A stretch of DNA of 25,955 bases from a virus: the IMG/VR virus record IMGVR_UViG_3300031215_000063, positions 1 to 25,955 of that record; one strand, 5' to 3'. The notes under the pieces were generated by a model, which did no database searches, was not told where the DNA came from, and saw only the letters and a program-made list of their open reading frames with translations. A program made the position numbers and the translations under genes. This document shows positions 876 through 19,282 of this stretch, piece after piece. The stretch's first letter is position 1. Each line of letters begins with the position of its first letter.

Positions 876-1102
876 AATACGAAAATAGAAAAGAGATGCA
901 GTACCTATTGACAGTGATAGAGGGTATTGAGTATTTGGAAAATGATTTGGTAGATTCATGTAAAGAAAAGTTAAAAGGGAAATATGAAGGGGAAGTTAGG
1001 AACTACTTTGGACTAGCTACCTCAGGAAATGAGGTAGCTGTTATCGCAGAGTATCTAATAAATAAAAAACTAGAACTAATTAAATTATCTGGAGAATTAT
1101 GA
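872..1102 (+). CDS. hypothetical protein, 76 aa
   Basis: This 76-residue, lysine- and glutamate-rich protein is probably all helical, with no membrane segment. Its start overlaps the previous stop (ATGA), and its own stop overlaps the start of the HD-domain gene in the same way, so the three genes are translationally coupled. The last codons (KLSGEL) double as the ribosome binding site of the next gene and form one copy of a 21-bp direct repeat found again at 1611-1631. No family is recognised. Confidence 0.65.
   Translation: MKYENRKEMQYLLTVIEGIEYLENDLVDSCKEKLKGKYEGEVRNYFGLATSGNEVAVIAEYLINKKLELIKLSGEL
1082..1102 (+). repeat. 21-bp direct repeat, copy 1 (start region of the HD gene)
   Basis: This copy carries TCTGGAGAATTATGA, that is the ribosome binding site and start codon of the HD-domain gene. 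An identical 21-base copy lies at 1611-1631, immediately after that gene. Confidence 0.85.
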
Positions 1103-1611
1103 GATTATCACAGCTAGAACAAAAAACTAAGGACTTCGCAACATACAAACATGAAGGACAATTCCGAAAGTACACAGGAGAGCCTTATATCGTACACCCA
1201 CAAGCAGTGGTTGAGCTAGTTAAATCAGTGCCCCACACAGAAGATATGGTCTGTGCCGCTTGGCTACACGATACAGTAGAAGATACCGACACTACTATTT
1301 CAGAGATATATTACTCTTTCAATGTGACGATAGCGTACTATGTTGAGATGTTGACAGACTTAACCATCAAATCGGATGGAAATAGGATGTATAGAAAGGG
1401 TTTAGAACGTAGAAGGATAGCTAGAGCTATTCCACAGATTAAAACCATCAAATTAGCGGATCTAATAGACAATACTAAGTCGATAGTCGCCCAAGACAGT
1501 ACTTTTGCTAAGATTTATCTAAAGGAGAAGTTACTATTACTAAGGGTATTAAAAGAAGGCCAGCCCAAGTTATGGACTGAGGCGAATAGAATAGCTAGTG
1601 TAAATATTTAA
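1099..1611 (+). CDS. HD-domain alarmone hydrolase, MESH1/SpoT-hydrolase type
   Basis: This 170-residue single-domain protein resembles the hydrolase half of RelA/SpoT proteins and the stand-alone enzyme MESH1, which removes pyrophosphate from (p)ppGpp using Mn2+. Family residues are visible in order: a KHEGQFRKY segment at 17-25, the VHP histidine H33, the HD pair H57-D58 inside WLHDTVEDT, E61-D62, and the KLAD..DN segment with D121 and N125. The length fits a hydrolase domain alone, and there is no synthetase domain. The ATG overlaps the preceding stop, and a GGAGAA ribosome binding site lies just upstream. In the cell it would act on soluble alarmones, perhaps to suppress the stringent response or to neutralise small toxic alarmone synthetases. 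The fold assignment is firm; the exact substrate, including (p)ppApp, is inference. Confidence 0.88.
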   Translation: MRLSQLEQKTKDFATYKHEGQFRKYTGEPYIVHPQAVVELVKSVPHTEDMVCAAWLHDTVEDTDTTISEIYYSFNVTIAYYVEMLTDLTIKSDGNRMYRKGLERRRIARAIPQIKTIKLADLIDNTKSIVAQDSTFAKIYLKEKLLLLRVLKEGQPKLWTEANRIASVNI

Positions 1612-3953: not shown

Positions 3954-4299
3954 TTAAGGAGAGTTCCCCCTCTTTCAATGTATATGTGAGTTTAAACCCT
4001 TCCACCCCATATTTATGTCGGAATAGCTCCTCTACAACAGCCATACAAGTTAATTGGTCAGCGAACTCCAAACATATATCAGCTAGTGCACTATTTTCCC
4101 AATCCTCGTAGTCTTCTTCATTCACGTAAAACATAAATTCACACACATCCCCATCATTAAATCCTGGGATGTAACCTACGAATACTAACTCCGCACCCTC
4201 TTTACCGGTTAGAAAGTCTTTCATTTCTTCTAGTATAGCCTCCCAACACACGTTTTTTGCTTTTTGTACTTCTTCAATTGCTAATTCTAATTTTTTCAT
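3925..4299 (-). CDS. hypothetical acidic protein, 124 aa
   Basis: A very acidic 124-residue protein: an N-terminal helix (LELAIEEVQKAKNVCWEAI), a strand (ELVFVGYIP), then an Asp/Glu-rich stretch (NEEDYEDWEN) and a C-terminal NEEDYYCGY tail. The acidity could mimic nucleic acid or mediate protein binding, but this is speculation. The ATG overlaps the stop of the NadV-like gene as ATGA, so it is translated together with the NAD gene pair. No family is recognised, but its position directly after the pair is worth noting. Confidence 0.65.
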   Translation of the reverse strand: MKKLELAIEEVQKAKNVCWEAILEEMKDFLTGKEGAELVFVGYIPGFNDGDVCEFMFYVNEEDYEDWENSALADICLEFADQLTCMAVVEELFRHKYGVEGFKLTYTLKEGELSLNEEDYYCGY

Positions 4300-5987
4300 A
4301 AAAACCTTATATCGTTATAGTTAACTTTATTAAATACTTTTCCATTTTTAAATACAGTCCTTAGTTCTCCACATCCACTATCTTCGAGGGAAACTTCTTC
4401 ATTTAAAACATAATCATCACCTGATTTAACTACCTGAAGTAATCCTTTGGCGGAACGTTTGATTCCACCATCAGTAATAGGGTCTTTAAATACTGTTTGA
4501 GGTACTGCCCCAATCTCACCATAGGTGGTTTTCATAGCTATCCCAAAAGTATCTCTAGTTTGGTACTGATATGTGAAAGATCCTACTCCAAATACAATAT
4601 TACTAGATGCGAACCCCTTTTCCTCTAATCTTTGGAAAATATCAACTGCCCTATCCATCGTAATTGAGTCGCCATATATGACACCCACATGAGGGTCTAG
4701 TACTTTATATCCCTTTGAGTTAATTGATCCCCCAAACTCATCCCACAGTAGCTCAACCACACCTTTTGATTTAGGTAATAATGCAATTTCCACCATAAAT
4801 ATATCGGAATCGGAGCGTTCGATAAAATAAAATTGCTTGTCGAACCTATTCCATCTAACATCCACAACACACTCGTAGCACTTACCTTCAAACTTAAATT
4901 TTCCAACAACCTCATCCCCTCCCCATTCACCGTGACCAGTTTCATCAACCAGTCGCTCCAAAAGGGTATCTTTACACCATGCTCTGAACTCTCCAATATC
5001 TTCACAGTCTTTACTAAAATCCTCAATAGTTTCACCACAAATAATATCAGCCGGATCACCTGAATCAGGCCTAATGACTAGTTTACCTTCTCTAGCTAGT
5101 ACTTCTTCCTTTAATTTAGGCAGATACTCAGTCAGTACTTTCCACAAATCCCAAGTATCAGACACCACACTAACTATCCCACTAGGATATAATTTAGTGA
5201 TTAGTCTTGAAAAAGTTTCTAACTCAGACTCCTTAGATCCCATACACATAACTGAATGTTCAGTAGCAGGCACTGACATAGCAACTACCCCCTCAGCATC
5301 ATAGTATTCCTTAGCTAGTTGGATAGCAGGTACCGTATCTGATCCCATAAAACTAAGTAAATGAGCTGACCCAGATAATGCAGCATCATAAGGATTACTT
5401 AATCCTCTAAACGAAAAATCATGACATTGAAAATTCACATGTGAGGTATCGTCGCAAGTTCTTTCTGAAGCGTCCAGGCACAACTGTCTATAGTGATGTG
5501 CTATAGTAGCTGATGTAATAGGTCGCCATATAACACAACTTAACAATGTTTCGATGTAATTCACTAGCCAAAAGAAATCATCATGAGTGTTAGTTATTGT
5601 TAAATAGGGTACTCCGATATCCACCCTAGAGCCTTCAGGCAATGCTTTTATCTCAATAGGTAAATGTCCAAGTCTGTGCAACATTGTGAACATAAATACA
5701 CCATTATCCCCTCCCAGCGAGCTGTCCAACATGTTTTTATGTTCGGACAATAAATCATTCAATTCCCCTACCGACAGATTAAAAAATTCATCATTAAACA
5801 AATCAATTAAGTAGTCCTTAATGAAGTACTGTAGCCCATAAAAGACTGTTTTATTGTCTTTTAACCAAGGAGAATGTTTAGCTGACCTAGCTGTTAGGTT
5901 AGCATATATTTTATTTGTCCCAGCAGGGTATTGTCGTCGATGGTCTACTTTGTAAAAATCTATCAGGTCTAGTGGTTTAAGTTTCAT
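4296..5987 (-). CDS. nadV: nicotinamide phosphoribosyltransferase-like enzyme (NadV/NAMPT family; Namat candidate)
   Basis: NAMPT enzymes join nicotinamide to PRPP to make NMN. The phage relative Namat joins nicotinamide to ADP-ribose pyrophosphate, giving NAD+ in one step. This 563-residue protein carries the family landmarks in order: DFYKVDHR at 10-17, HDFSFRGLS at 189-197 (F and R around nicotinamide), MGSDTV with D217, TEHSV with H244, VSDTWD at 276-280, IRPDSGDP with R306 and D308, IYGDSI near 437-442, FGVGS near 476, and FKDPITDG near 500. About 85-90 residues are inserted after the RPDSGDP loop (about 319-408) relative to human-type NAMPT, which explains the extra length. AAGGAG precedes the ATG, one base after the prs-like gene. 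The family is certain; NMN versus NAD+ product is not decided by sequence. Confidence 0.93.
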   Translation of the reverse strand: MKLKPLDLIDFYKVDHRRQYPAGTNKIYANLTARSAKHSPWLKDNKTVFYGLQYFIKDYLIDLFNDEFFNLSVGELNDLLSEHKNMLDSSLGGDNGVFMFTMLHRLGHLPIEIKALPEGSRVDIGVPYLTITNTHDDFFWLVNYIETLLSCVIWRPITSATIAHHYRQLCLDASERTCDDTSHVNFQCHDFSFRGLSNPYDAALSGSAHLLSFMGSDTVPAIQLAKEYYDAEGVVAMSVPATEHSVMCMGSKESELETFSRLITKLYPSGIVSVVSDTWDLWKVLTEYLPKLKEEVLAREGKLVIRPDSGDPADIICGETIEDFSKDCEDIGEFRAWCKDTLLERLVDETGHGEWGGDEVVGKFKFEGKCYECVVDVRWNRFDKQFYFIERSDSDIFMVEIALLPKSKGVVELLWDEFGGSINSKGYKVLDPHVGVIYGDSITMDRAVDIFQRLEEKGFASSNIVFGVGSFTYQYQTRDTFGIAMKTTYGEIGAVPQTVFKDPITDGGIKRSAKGLLQVVKSGDDYVLNEEVSLEDSGCGELRTVFKNGKVFNKVNYNDIRFL

Positions 5988-5988
5988 A

Positions 5989-6753
5989 TTAATTCTCCTT
6001 TATATTAATAGCTGCATTGTTGTATTTAAAACTATACACATTATTGTAGTATTCTCTTAACTCGTCTGTTCCTCTTGTAAATAGTCCATGTGACACAACC
6101 AAATCAAGATCATACTCAGGTAATTTTTTAGCTAGTTCAATGAATGTTCTACCTCCATCACAGATATCATCAATGACTAGTCCGTTACCTTTAGCATCCT
6201 CTAAATCTATTTTTATTTTCGGTCCAGAACTATCTCGGGTCTTTGAAGCGCAGTACACAGGCTTATCGAATAGTTCACCTAATCTACTAACTTCCTTGTA
6301 CGCTCCAGCATCAGGTGCTATAAAGAAATCGTAAAAGTCTAGTTTATTTTGGAAGTTAGATATTCTCCAAACGGCTGCTTTAGATATACTTCTAGCGTCT
6401 CTGAAATAGTTCACTGTAGATATGTTATGTAAATCAACAATTTCAAGATTGGTATGGGATAACTTGTTGATTACCTGAGATATAGCATACAGCGCATTGT
6501 TATTTTCTGGCCTATCTTGTCTAGCATACGGCATATATGGAATACTTAATATCCACTCATCAGTCGCTAACACATCACTAAGGATAATTAACTCTTCTAG
6601 GTCTCTATTGGGGGCGCTATCCCATGCCCACTCAACTACATGAACTTCCCTATCGTCTAAATCAACGTCTACCTCACCTCCTCCCCAAACATTGGGTTTG
6701 ATGCTTAGCCTTTCATTAGGGCTGTTCCAGTACTTATTGTATAAATTTATCAT
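5989..6753 (-). CDS. prs: ribose-phosphate pyrophosphokinase-like enzyme (Prs family; Adps candidate)
   Basis: Prs transfers pyrophosphate from ATP to ribose 5-phosphate. The phage relative Adps acts on ADP-ribose instead. The 254-residue product is shorter than cellular Prs (about 315) and divergent. Recognisable are PYARQDR at 75-81 (ATP loop), VDLHN at 106-110, APDAGAYKE at 146-154, the flexible-loop lysine in SKTRD at about 170-174, and the PRPP-loop signature VIDDICDGGRT at 193-203. Cellular enzymes have DLHADQ after the ATP loop and DTGGT in the PRPP loop, and both are changed here. I chose the ATG at 6753, which shares one base with the primase stop and has GAGGGA nine bases upstream. 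A GTG at 6756 is possible. It is directly followed by the NadV-like gene, so the two products probably act in sequence. Confidence 0.9.
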   Translation of the reverse strand: MINLYNKYWNSPNERLSIKPNVWGGGEVDVDLDDREVHVVEWAWDSAPNRDLEELIILSDVLATDEWILSIPYMPYARQDRPENNNALYAISQVINKLSHTNLEIVDLHNISTVNYFRDARSISKAAVWRISNFQNKLDFYDFFIAPDAGAYKEVSRLGELFDKPVYCASKTRDSSGPKIKIDLEDAKGNGLVIDDICDGGRTFIELAKKLPEYDLDLVVSHGLFTRGTDELREYYNNVYSFKYNNAAINIKEN

Positions 6754-8324
6754 CACATTATCCCTCTTATATGGTTATCTTTAATAGGTTCAACTCTTAC
6801 ATTTAACTTAGCGGTCTCAATACACCAACAATTTTCTTTATGTCCATCAATACTTACAGTTTTAGACTCAAACCCTGCTCTCCTAGCAATAGCCCACTGC
6901 CCTTTTGTGCCAATATTATATTTATTGTCTTTGCAAAATCTATCAAAACCACTTCCCTTGAATATAACATAAGATTCTCCACTAATGTCTTTACTAACTG
7001 CCCTACCATTTTTAAAGAAGGAGTATACTTCTTTATCACTACCGTACTTCATATTAACTGCAGTAGTCGCAAATTCTTTCAACGCCGCTCTAGTAGAGCC
7101 TACTTCTCCAGCATCATCTGGAGCATCTACTAACTCTACTTTGGTGAATTTCTCATTTAGAAAATCTGTCCAATCATTCTCCTTCCGCTTCTGGAATAGA
7201 TAGTTTATGGAGTTCATCGCCTTTACTCTAAACTTCCCGTGATCACATAATTCAGCATCAGATAATGATATCTCACGATCATTTACAAATAAACTATACG
7301 AGGGGGGGTCGGTTAGTATCTTAGTTAGTTGTCCGATGTAGATCCCGTCTACACTATCTTCCTTCAGTGTTTTTCTAGCATCAATCCCACAAACTAGCTG
7401 TTTACAAATTGCCTTATTACAATAAGGCAACGATCCACAAGAATAATTAACTTCTTTGGTAATTTGAGCTTTGGCTCTAGACCTAAAATACCCTTCTCTA
7501 TATTCAGGAGTACTTAGTGCTTGAGCTCCCTCATTCTGAAGCAGCTGGGTCAGTGTTTCCACATCAATATTATCGTCTTTTTTCTTAAAATATATAGATG
7601 CTTGGTGAATATAGTTCTGCTGATGCCCAGCCGGTACTTTTTCATCTCTATCTAAATAAGGTTTCATACAAGGAGGGGCATCATTCTCATCAAATTTAGG
7701 TATTAGATCCAATTTATCGTTTAACTTACGAACTTCTTGAGCGGCTAGTACAAACTCTTCTAGATCTAGATATTTTCCTCCTGAAAATGCCAATCTATTA
7801 CATTGTTCTGTTTCAGAGTATAGATTGTAATAGGGGAGGTTTATCCAATTACCCTTACCTTCTAACTCATTCAACTGGTTCTGCTTTGGGAATATCTCAA
7901 CCTCATCCTTCGAGGAATACTTTCTTTCTATACCTTCTAGGTTTAGCTTTTGTAAAAAATCTCCCAATAAAAACCTTAGATCTCTGGCTTGGATGCCCAT
8001 CCCACCAAAGAAAGTGTAAAGGTGCGCACCTCCTGATTTGGACCTGCACGCTAAAAGAGGTAGATTTTGGTTTTTAATGGCCCCTTCTACATCCTCGAAA
8101 TTAACTTGGGTGTCCAAATCAATTGCTCCAAAATTACAGAACCCACTCTTTCTAATGGGAATAACGCCTAGGCTAATCTCTCCTCTTAGATGTTTTTCGT
8201 AATCATCAAAGGTTAGGTCTTCTTTTATTGTTCTACTGTGGCCGTCTGATCTACCGTATGCGTGGGTACCTCCACTAAACAGATCAGTGAACTCATTTAC
8301 ACTATCTTCATTTATAGCTTCCAT
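6753..8324 (-). CDS. archaeo-eukaryotic primase-type DNA primase
   Basis: This 523-residue protein is an AEP-fold primase of the phage/TOTE-like group, expected to make primers for the family A polymerase. Visible landmarks: the opening LFSGGTHAYGRSDG region, HLRGEISLGVIPI, the metal-binding FGAIDLDTQ with D69 and D71, the nucleotide-binding CRSKSGGAHLY with S97 and H101, and EIFPKQ with E143 supplying the third acidic residue, followed by GNWINLPYY. Four cysteines at 296, 302, 307 and 312 form a probable zinc site (CGSLPYCNKAICKQLVC). The C-terminal 200 residues have no visible helicase motifs. AAGGATG precedes the ATG. It lies between the 5' nuclease side of the operon and the NAD gene pair. 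Confidence 0.85.
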   Translation of the reverse strand: MEAINEDSVNEFTDLFSGGTHAYGRSDGHSRTIKEDLTFDDYEKHLRGEISLGVIPIRKSGFCNFGAIDLDTQVNFEDVEGAIKNQNLPLLACRSKSGGAHLYTFFGGMGIQARDLRFLLGDFLQKLNLEGIERKYSSKDEVEIFPKQNQLNELEGKGNWINLPYYNLYSETEQCNRLAFSGGKYLDLEEFVLAAQEVRKLNDKLDLIPKFDENDAPPCMKPYLDRDEKVPAGHQQNYIHQASIYFKKKDDNIDVETLTQLLQNEGAQALSTPEYREGYFRSRAKAQITKEVNYSCGSLPYCNKAICKQLVCGIDARKTLKEDSVDGIYIGQLTKILTDPPSYSLFVNDREISLSDAELCDHGKFRVKAMNSINYLFQKRKENDWTDFLNEKFTKVELVDAPDDAGEVGSTRAALKEFATTAVNMKYGSDKEVYSFFKNGRAVSKDISGESYVIFKGSGFDRFCKDNKYNIGTKGQWAIARRAGFESKTVSIDGHKENCWCIETAKLNVRVEPIKDNHIRGIM

Positions 8325-10975: not shown

Positions 10976-11635
10976 TTAAGATTCAATGTTTGAGATACTT
11001 TTTATAAATTGTCCGTACCTTTTTATTTGAGTAACTGAATAATTCTCGTCTTCCCCTATTTTCTCAAAATTCTTTGCCCAATTTACCGTTCGGTATGTTT
11101 TACATCCTATTGCGATATATTTATCATCATCAAACGCTACAGCAAGATGCTGTTCGCATTGAAAAATGGTGATGCCTTTAGCTCCAGATAAATCAGCTCT
11201 AGATAACTCAGCTCCCGATAAATTAGCTCTGTATAAATTAGCTTCTGATAAATCAGCTCTATATAAATTAGCTCCTGATAATTTAGCTCCTGATAAATTA
11301 GCTTTATATAAATTAGCTCCAGATAAATTAGCTTCTGATAAATCAGCTCCTGATAAATCAGCTCCAGATAAATTAGCTCTCGATAAATTAGTATCCCTCA
11401 AATCAGCATACCTCAAATCAGCATACCTCAAATCAGCACTACTCAAATCAGCATACCTCAAATTAGCACCAAGCAAATTAGCACCAAGCAAATCAGCATC
11501 TCTTAAATCAGCATCTCTTAAATCAGCATCCCTCAAATCCACACAACACAGAGTAGCACGAACACCCTTACGTCCTACTGATTGTACCCAAATTTTATGT
11601 TCAGATAGAATTCCATCTAATATTTCTTTTTTCAT
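10976..11635 (-). CDS. pentapeptide-repeat protein, 219 aa
   Basis: Residues about 33-152 are 24 consecutive five-residue units of the A(D/N)LXX type (such as [15 protein letters not shown]), which fold as a right-handed quadrilateral beta-helix, a DNA-like rod. The N-terminus ([18 protein letters not shown]) and the C-terminal domain ([22 protein letters not shown]) match a common phage layout in this superfamily. GAGGGA precedes the ATG, and a TTGCAA-17-TATAGA promoter lies upstream. Some family members mimic DNA and shield gyrase; that role here is inference. The repeats are 15-base units at DNA level, so copy number could change by slippage. Confidence 0.9.
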
Positions 11636-12183: not shown

Positions 12184-12259
12184 TGGTGCTGAAGGTATGA
12201 ATCGAACACACAACCTACTGATTACAAATCAGTTGCTCTACCAGTTGAGCTACTCCAGC
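12184..12259 (-). tRNA. tRNA-Thr (anticodon TGT)
   Basis: A 76-base cloverleaf with acceptor GCTGGAG/CTTCAGC, D-arm CTCAACTGGTAGAG, anticodon loop TTTGTAA giving TGT, T-arm GTGTG-TTCGATT-CATAC and an encoded CCA. It reads ACA. All stems pair well with only a few G-U pairs, so it should be functional. Confidence 0.92.
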
Positions 12260-12267
12260 TAATTCTT

Positions 12268-12351
12268 TGGTGTAAGATCTAGGATTCGAACCTAGGAACC
12301 CGAAGGAAGAGATTTACAGTCTCTCTGCTTTAACCACTTGCATAATCTTAC
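12268..12351 (-). tRNA. tRNA-Tyr (anticodon GTA)
   Basis: An 84-base class II tRNA with acceptor GTAAGAT/ATCTTAC, anticodon loop CTGTAAA giving GTA, a long variable arm (TCCTTCGGGTT), T-arm CCTAG-GTTCGAATC-CTAG and an encoded CCA. Its first 12 bases (GTAAGATTATGC) are repeated as a fossil in the spacer at 12431-12442. Confidence 0.93.
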
Positions 12352-12391
12352 ATTTTGGTACTCCGAGAAGGATTCGAACCTTCAGATACAC
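12340..12391. repeat. 52-bp direct repeat, original copy (tRNA-Tyr/tRNA-Leu junction)
   Basis: The bases from 12340 to 12391 span the 5' end of tRNA-Tyr, the short spacer, and the 3' half of tRNA-Leu. They are identical to 12431-12482. Here every part belongs to an intact tRNA, so this is the source copy. Confidence 0.92.
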
Positions 12392-12432
12392 GTTTCTAAG
12401 ACGTGCCTGTATACCAGTTCCAGCATCGGAGC
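12356..12432 (-). tRNA. tRNA-Leu (anticodon TAG), short variable arm
   Basis: A 77-base tRNA with acceptor GCTCCGA/TCGGAGT, a 3-bp D-stem with the Leu-like loop GGAACTGGTATA, anticodon stem CACGT/ACGTG with loop CTTAGAA giving TAG, T-arm GAAGG-TTCGAAT-CCTTC, discriminator A and encoded CCA. It would read CUA, a codon that is frequent in these genes. Leu tRNAs normally have a long variable arm, while only TATCT is present here, so the gene may have lost it. It still folds well. Confidence 0.85.
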
Positions 12433-19205: not shown

Positions 19206-19282
19206 TGGTAGACAAGGAGAGACTCGAACTCTCGACCTCCCCGTTATGAGCGGGATGCTCTAACCAACTGAGCTACCTGTCC
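19206..19282 (-). tRNA. tRNA-Met (anticodon CAT)
   Basis: A 77-base cloverleaf with acceptor GGACAGG/CTTGTCT, D-arm GCTCAGTTGGTTAGAGC, anticodon stem TCCCG/CGGGG and loop CTCATAA giving CAT, T-arm GAGAG-TTCGAGT-CTCTC and an encoded CCA. The D-arm resembles elongator tRNA-Met. A CAT anticodon modified to read AUA (Ile2) cannot be excluded. It lies alone between nrdB and the DUF3310 gene on the same strand. Confidence 0.92.

Follow-up and report, generated by a model that had tools for sequence, protein, structure and literature searches.

Do the two adjacent genes at this locus, one of the PRPP synthetase (Prs) family and one of the NAMPT family, provide an ordinary NAD+ salvage route, or do they form a NARP1 module that rebuilds NAD+ after host defences have destroyed it? 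The window, by which we mean the whole stretch of DNA analysed, is an entire IMG/VR record of 25,955 bases, a fragment of a virus whose genome is incomplete. From its alignments, trees, predicted structures and gene neighbourhoods we conclude, with high confidence, that the two genes form a phage NARP1 module, which makes them a further example of an already described counter-defence. The genes concerned are these:

6753..8324, minus strand: primase of the AEP-TOTE type (PF22548, 5e-15; phrog_21866), directly upstream of adps
5989..6753, minus strand: adps, an ADP-ribose (pyro)phosphokinase-like gene of Prs fold, 254 aa from the ATG at 6753 (phrog_619, tree side, start sequence, AlphaFold2 model)
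4296..5987, minus strand: namat, a nicotinamide ADP-ribose transferase-like gene, 563 aa (phrog_448, NF006629, 48% identity to SPbetaL1 Namat, model compared with 9w5w)

The preliminary description of this DNA had placed a Prs-family gene immediately before a NAMPT-family gene, one base apart, and the reading frames bear this out: 5989-6753 is followed by 4296-5987, with the adps stop and the namat start separated by the single base 5988. Upstream, the primase stop and the adps start overlap in the sequence TGATG, sharing one base; downstream, the namat stop overlaps the next ATG, beyond which lie small unknown genes. Owing to the overlapping stops and starts and the one-base gap, primase, adps and namat make up a translationally coupled run, and Shine-Dalgarno-like sequences stand at both genes of the pair (AGAGGG for adps, AAAGGAG for namat). 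The adps start is probably the ATG at 6753, the alternative being a GTG at 6756 (5989-6756, 255 aa). The primase belongs to the same operon as adps and lies outside the NAD+ pathway. Elsewhere the window holds an HD_4-domain protein (1099-1611, plus strand), a possible small alarmone hydrolase; a pentapeptide-repeat protein of 219 aa (10976-11635, minus strand); three tRNAs in a row (Thr, Tyr, Leu-UAG; 12184-12432, minus strand); and a separate tRNA-Met (19206-19282, minus strand) adjoining ribonucleotide reductase genes. A near-DNA search of the phage collection returned no relative of the fragment except 90-base RNR and tRNA matches.

By profile search, the namat product is a phrog_448 nicotinamide phosphoribosyltransferase (E 7e-182), scoring 570.9 bits against NF006629 (cut-off 405), and the adps product is a phrog_619 ribose-phosphate pyrophosphokinase (E 4e-44) whose 66 bits against TIGR01251 fall under the cut-off of 113, marking it as divergent from true Prs. 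The NAMPT-like protein can be assigned to its family with strong support, the Prs-like one with moderate support. The Pfam and NCBIfam labels for the two, PRPP synthetase-like and nicotinate/nicotinamide phosphoribosyltransferase, speak for classical NAD+ salvage, in which a divergent PRPP synthetase would supply PRPP, an NAMPT would make NMN, and the NMN would be adenylylated by the host (NadD/NadM/NadR) or by a phage enzyme not seen here. We consider this quite unlikely for the reasons developed below; were it true, the pair would give general support to phage growth or act as a NARP2-like counter-defence.

Our reference for NARP1 is the Bacillus phage SPbetaL1 (OQ921341; Adps of 272 aa, Namat of 491 aa, structures 9w5w and 9w5x), for which the steps of the pathway have been established (PMC12774641). 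By homology to that system, the substrates, products and counter-defence role of the window pair would be as follows. The Adps, whose fold is that of Prs, would transfer pyrophosphate from ATP to ADP-ribose and so form ADP-ribose pyrophosphate (ADPR-PP), and Namat would join ADPR-PP and nicotinamide into NAD+ in one step, dispensing with an NMN adenylyltransferase. Namat would work as a NAMPT-fold dimer in which the clamp helix from one subunit and the clamp loop from its partner together grip the adenine. During infection, the two enzymes would refill the NAD+ pool once it has been broken down to ADP-ribose and nicotinamide by host NADases of the TIR, SIR2 or SEFIR type.

Namat is told from NAMPT by a clamp helix of the form GSXΦXΦXΦTRD, whose aromatic third and seventh residues stack on adenine, and by a clamp loop that carries R, or else K/Y followed by a stacking residue (PMC12774641). 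An alignment of the window protein with the SPbetaL1 Namat, other phage proteins, five true NAMPTs and 35 relatives located the relevant sites:

4551..4583, minus strand: selectivity-clamp helix GSFTYQYQTRD, residues 469-479, by alignment with the published motif
5865..5894, minus strand: selectivity-clamp loop TARSAKHSPW, residues 32-41, by alignment and the loop rule of PMC12774641
5256..5258, minus strand: H244 of EHS, at the position of the conserved EHS histidine (SPbetaL1 H245) in the alignment
5064..5072, minus strand: R306-P-D308, with catalytic R306 and D308, numbered as in SPbetaL1

The helix is an exact Namat signature in which both adenine-stacking aromatics, F471 and Y475, are present; the same site in the five true NAMPTs reads GG[GA]LLQ...RD. 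In the loop, K37 occupies the position of SPbetaL1 R40 and is followed by H38, which fits the K rule if the histidine stacks, something that sequence cannot show. The catalytic core is complete (D13, Y15, F189, R192, D215, R306, D308 and the EHS histidine, in SPbetaL1 numbers), including the arginine whose exchange in R306A abolishes SPbetaL1 Namat activity (PMC12774641), and the compared positions all match that enzyme except for K in place of R40 and S in place of A362, both common in relatives. A tree computed without the clamp columns puts the window protein on the Namat side, opposite the NAMPTs, with support of 100. Furthermore, its predicted structure (pLDDT 91) has its best match in the SPbetaL1 Namat–NAD+ structure 9w5w (Z 47.9, 1.6 Å, 468 residues), with human and mouse NAMPT clearly lower at Z about 43.

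Just under Namat in these structural matches ranks HdNadV (9ke8), solved with NMN. In the tree it sides with the Namats, although Q392 and R396 stand in place of its clamp aromatics. Tree position alone is therefore not proof of substrate, and trees were dropped as sole proof once HdNadV had landed on that side. HdNadV lends some weight to classical salvage, as does the observation that Namat in vitro also turns PRPP into NMN, at about half the human NAMPT rate (PMC12774641), but the window protein has both of the aromatics of which HdNadV has neither. Our substrate call, a prediction read from sequence, rests on the clamp residues, which the window protein has, rather than on the tree. Considered for itself, the grouping of HdNadV (PDB 9ke8 / 9keo) with phage Namats minus the clamp aromatics suggests a substrate switch within the Namat side. 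Another Namat clade (loci L055, L056, L060, L065, L068 and L076) carries a clamp helix lengthened by seven residues (GSFTYQ-GAVTPDA-IITRD), with Ile at the place of the adenine-stacking Tyr396, and its Adps loop reads DDI...GGTF, lacking DICDGG; judging from these residues, this clade may recognise the adenine side differently.

For the Prs-like partner, a tree was built from 52 sequences, seven of them true Prs, and invariance was scored over 45 aligned Adps. Three sites stand out:

6511..6522, minus strand: RQDR, the ATP-site motif, R78-R81, aligned to E. coli Prs RQDR 96-99
6424..6435, minus strand: D107-L-H109-N110, by alignment a departure from the Adps group motif, with H109 kept
6142..6171, minus strand: DDICDGGRTF loop, D195-F204, the usual phage Adps form, replacing the Prs ribose-5-phosphate loop DDMIDTGGTL

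The preliminary description had called this protein about 60 residues short and altered in its DLHADQ and DTGGT motifs, and had suggested that these traits could reflect an ADP-ribose substrate. The shortness stands in comparison with E. coli Prs (315 aa) but is not unusual, 250-300 aa being normal for Adps (272 in SPbetaL1, 250 in ctKR88). Both motif changes are confirmed by the alignment, in which the classical features DLHA(D/E)Q and DTGGT are absent and the window reads DLHNIST and CDGGRT, the latter shared with most Adps. The inference itself went in the right direction, as these features are common to all of the Adps, among them the SPbetaL1 enzyme for which biochemical tests exist. We rejected a reading of the short, motif-altered protein as the product of a degenerate gene, since tested and paired Adps have the same size and altered loop. 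Judged from Prs structure, the change in the DTGGT loop would suit a substrate that bears AMP on its 5-phosphate.

In the tree, the protein groups with phage Adps, the SPbetaL1 enzyme among them, and away from the seven Prs, with support of 99. Placement with the classical families, the PRPP synthetases and the NAMPTs, had been named beforehand as an outcome that would speak against NARP1, and neither protein shows it; the position of the partner outside the Prs clade and the loss of its ribose-5-phosphate loop also count against classical salvage. All twelve residues that are invariant across the 45 Adps are kept (D80, H109, P147, D148, G150, K171, R173, D195, D196, G201, T203 and F204), and R78 and R81, nearly invariant in the group, flank the invariant D80. 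The AlphaFold2 model (pLDDT 86.7) finds its best fold matches in PRPP synthetases. The window protein is the most divergent Adps of the set, with the longest end branch (2.11) of all 52 sequences and at best 34% identity to any relative, and where the group motif reads DPHSDVT it has lost the SD of HSDVT, a motif that also varies in other Adps (HNEEV, HSEVG, HSPVG). Given the long branch, the low identity and the change to DLHNIST, its placement inside the Adps group is unsure, and only the side of the split is secure.

The pairing itself is conserved. In 76 of the 80 related viral loci, an Adps gene accompanies Namat on the same strand (upstream in 67, downstream in 9), at spacings from overlapping to 3.1 kb, and the four loci without it are all cut by contig ends; of a wider neighbourhood, only scattered RNR genes recur. 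Matches (E 1e-5) to the NAMPT family occur in 1,919 phage records and to Adps/Prs in 1,146. As the preliminary description had it, no NMN adenylyltransferase is visible in the window: a domain search of the 26-kb record, itself incomplete, gave no CTP_transf_like match. Taken alone, such a gap says little when only 26 kb are at hand, and the gene may lie elsewhere in the genome. An adjoining NMN adenylyltransferase, another outcome named beforehand as contrary to NARP1, occurs in none of 36 relatives, the candidates in four of them being small or weak matches 8-30 kb off. The NMN-route genes that we examined, by contrast, come with this enzyme: KVP40, whose NadV is without the clamp, gives two matches in the same search, and on two bacterial plasmids, from Sinorhizobium and Methylosinus, true NAMPT genes directly adjoin an NMN adenylyltransferase/Nudix gene. 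A classical NAMPT or NARP2-like assignment is accordingly at odds with a window in which the clamp is present and a CTP_transf_like match is absent. The NARP1 reading is supported by the clamp signature, the catalytic residues, the tree sides, the pairing, the lack of an adjoining NMN adenylyltransferase and the best match to 9w5w, and the resemblance to the NARP1 arrangement first noticed in the letters holds good.

Several relatives carry further genes close to the pair. Macro-domain-like ORFs, with a weak Pfam macro match, lie between Adps and Namat in L010-L012 (5513-5962), L016 (5476-5988) and L019 (3004-3516); a macro domain was looked for in the window and none was found. On the contig of L074, a gene with a RyR domain (RyDEP family; 32410-32544) lies 1.2 kb from Namat. 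A RyDEP is inserted in the DyoEdafos NARP1 operon (PMC13232231), and phage Adele has a macro-domain gene near NARP1 (PMC12846349), so that by analogy these putatively ADP-ribose-related neighbours parallel published NARP1 loci. A gene for a PF15891 protein (nucleoside 2-deoxyribosyltransferase-like) occurs in nine of 49 Namat-bearing viral records, in every case with a copy at most 1 kb from Namat, a proximity whose crude chance product, with relatedness ignored, is about 2e-14. Copies lie at L007:5603-5998, L020:5212-5703, L026:4655-5116, L031:5511-6008, L038:5480-5968 and L057:5317-5793 and on the contigs of L049, L055 and L060, and in six of the nine records the gene stands between Adps and Namat. 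By analogy with RyDEP, this protein could be a glycosidase that feeds ADP-ribose into the pathway; a limited literature search found no paper linking PF15891 to NARP1.

Set beside known systems, the window pair shares with SPbetaL1 NARP1 its gene order, tight coupling, NAMPT-type core, clamp helix (GSFTYQY.TRD) and fold, with 48% identity between the Namats at the Z of 47.9 given above. It differs in the K at position 40, in some 80 extra residues after RPDSGDP and in its Adps, which is 26% identical to that of SPbetaL1 and has DDICDGGRTF where the latter has DDLSSFGGTF. The pair of Salmonella phage Felix O1 (NC_005282), which is probably close to the NARP1 tested in Bas63, likewise has Adps upstream of Namat, K at position 40, the DDICDGGRTF loop and a long insertion at the same place in Namat, with GSYTYQYMTRD as its clamp motif; unlike the window, it has an HNH gene between the two genes, and identities are 41% for Namat and 25% for Adps. 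KVP40 NadV, a classical phage NAMPT, shares the NAMPT fold and catalytic residues at 31% identity, but reads GGGLLQQLDRD in place of the clamp and has no adjoining Adps, its genome carrying two NMN adenylyltransferase-type genes.

Like the clamp motif itself, the extra residues of the window Namat had escaped the preliminary description; they form a distinct feature:

4776..5030, minus strand: alpha/beta insertion of about 80 residues, residues ~320-404, in the loop after RPDSGDP, by alignment and predicted structure

The site adjoins catalytic R306/D308 and is variable in length, the aligned stretch after RPDSGDP measuring 14 residues in true NAMPTs and 20-117 in Namats. A Pfam search for a known domain in the insertion gave no match, its database relatives occur only inside phage Namat-type genes, and its presence in many relatives means that it is not peculiar to the window phage. 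Insertions of the window type have the motif HGE..WNR.DKQ.Y, common to L002 and L004 and found in part in L010 and L023. Perhaps the insertion and the altered HSD motif of the divergent Adps together point to a form of NARP1 whose substrate use or regulation has changed, one that would, say, use an ADP-ribose derivative or channel ADPR-PP between the two enzymes; we regard this as quite improbable.

A still slighter chance attaches to a NARP1-derived pair in which the Adps has lost its activity or changed its substrate, with Namat working as an NAMPT on host PRPP or the pair using another ADP-ribose derivative, for although the 2.11 branch, the shift from DPHSDVT to DLHNIST and the want of a confirmed close Adps relative in viral contigs would suit it, the protein retains every invariant Adps residue in an intact, translationally coupled frame, its fold is predicted well, and other Adps vary at the same motif. 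Scanning viral contigs with only Adps as the query confirmed no relatives, since back-translated seeds cannot cope with so divergent a protein.

Returning to the NARP1 reading, the system has been described before and such pairs are common in phages; what the present locus adds is an extension of NARP1 to a phage lineage without a close sequenced relative in the phage collection, and its presence suggests NAD+-depleting defences on the part of the host lineage. It further indicates that the clamp motif and the Adps partner allow NARP1 to be recognised in raw sequence, although databases label the genes as an ordinary PRPP synthetase and a nicotin(amid)ate phosphoribosyltransferase. The length-variable insertion site of Namat and the recurrent accessory genes around NARP1 are more promising ground for novelty than the pair itself.
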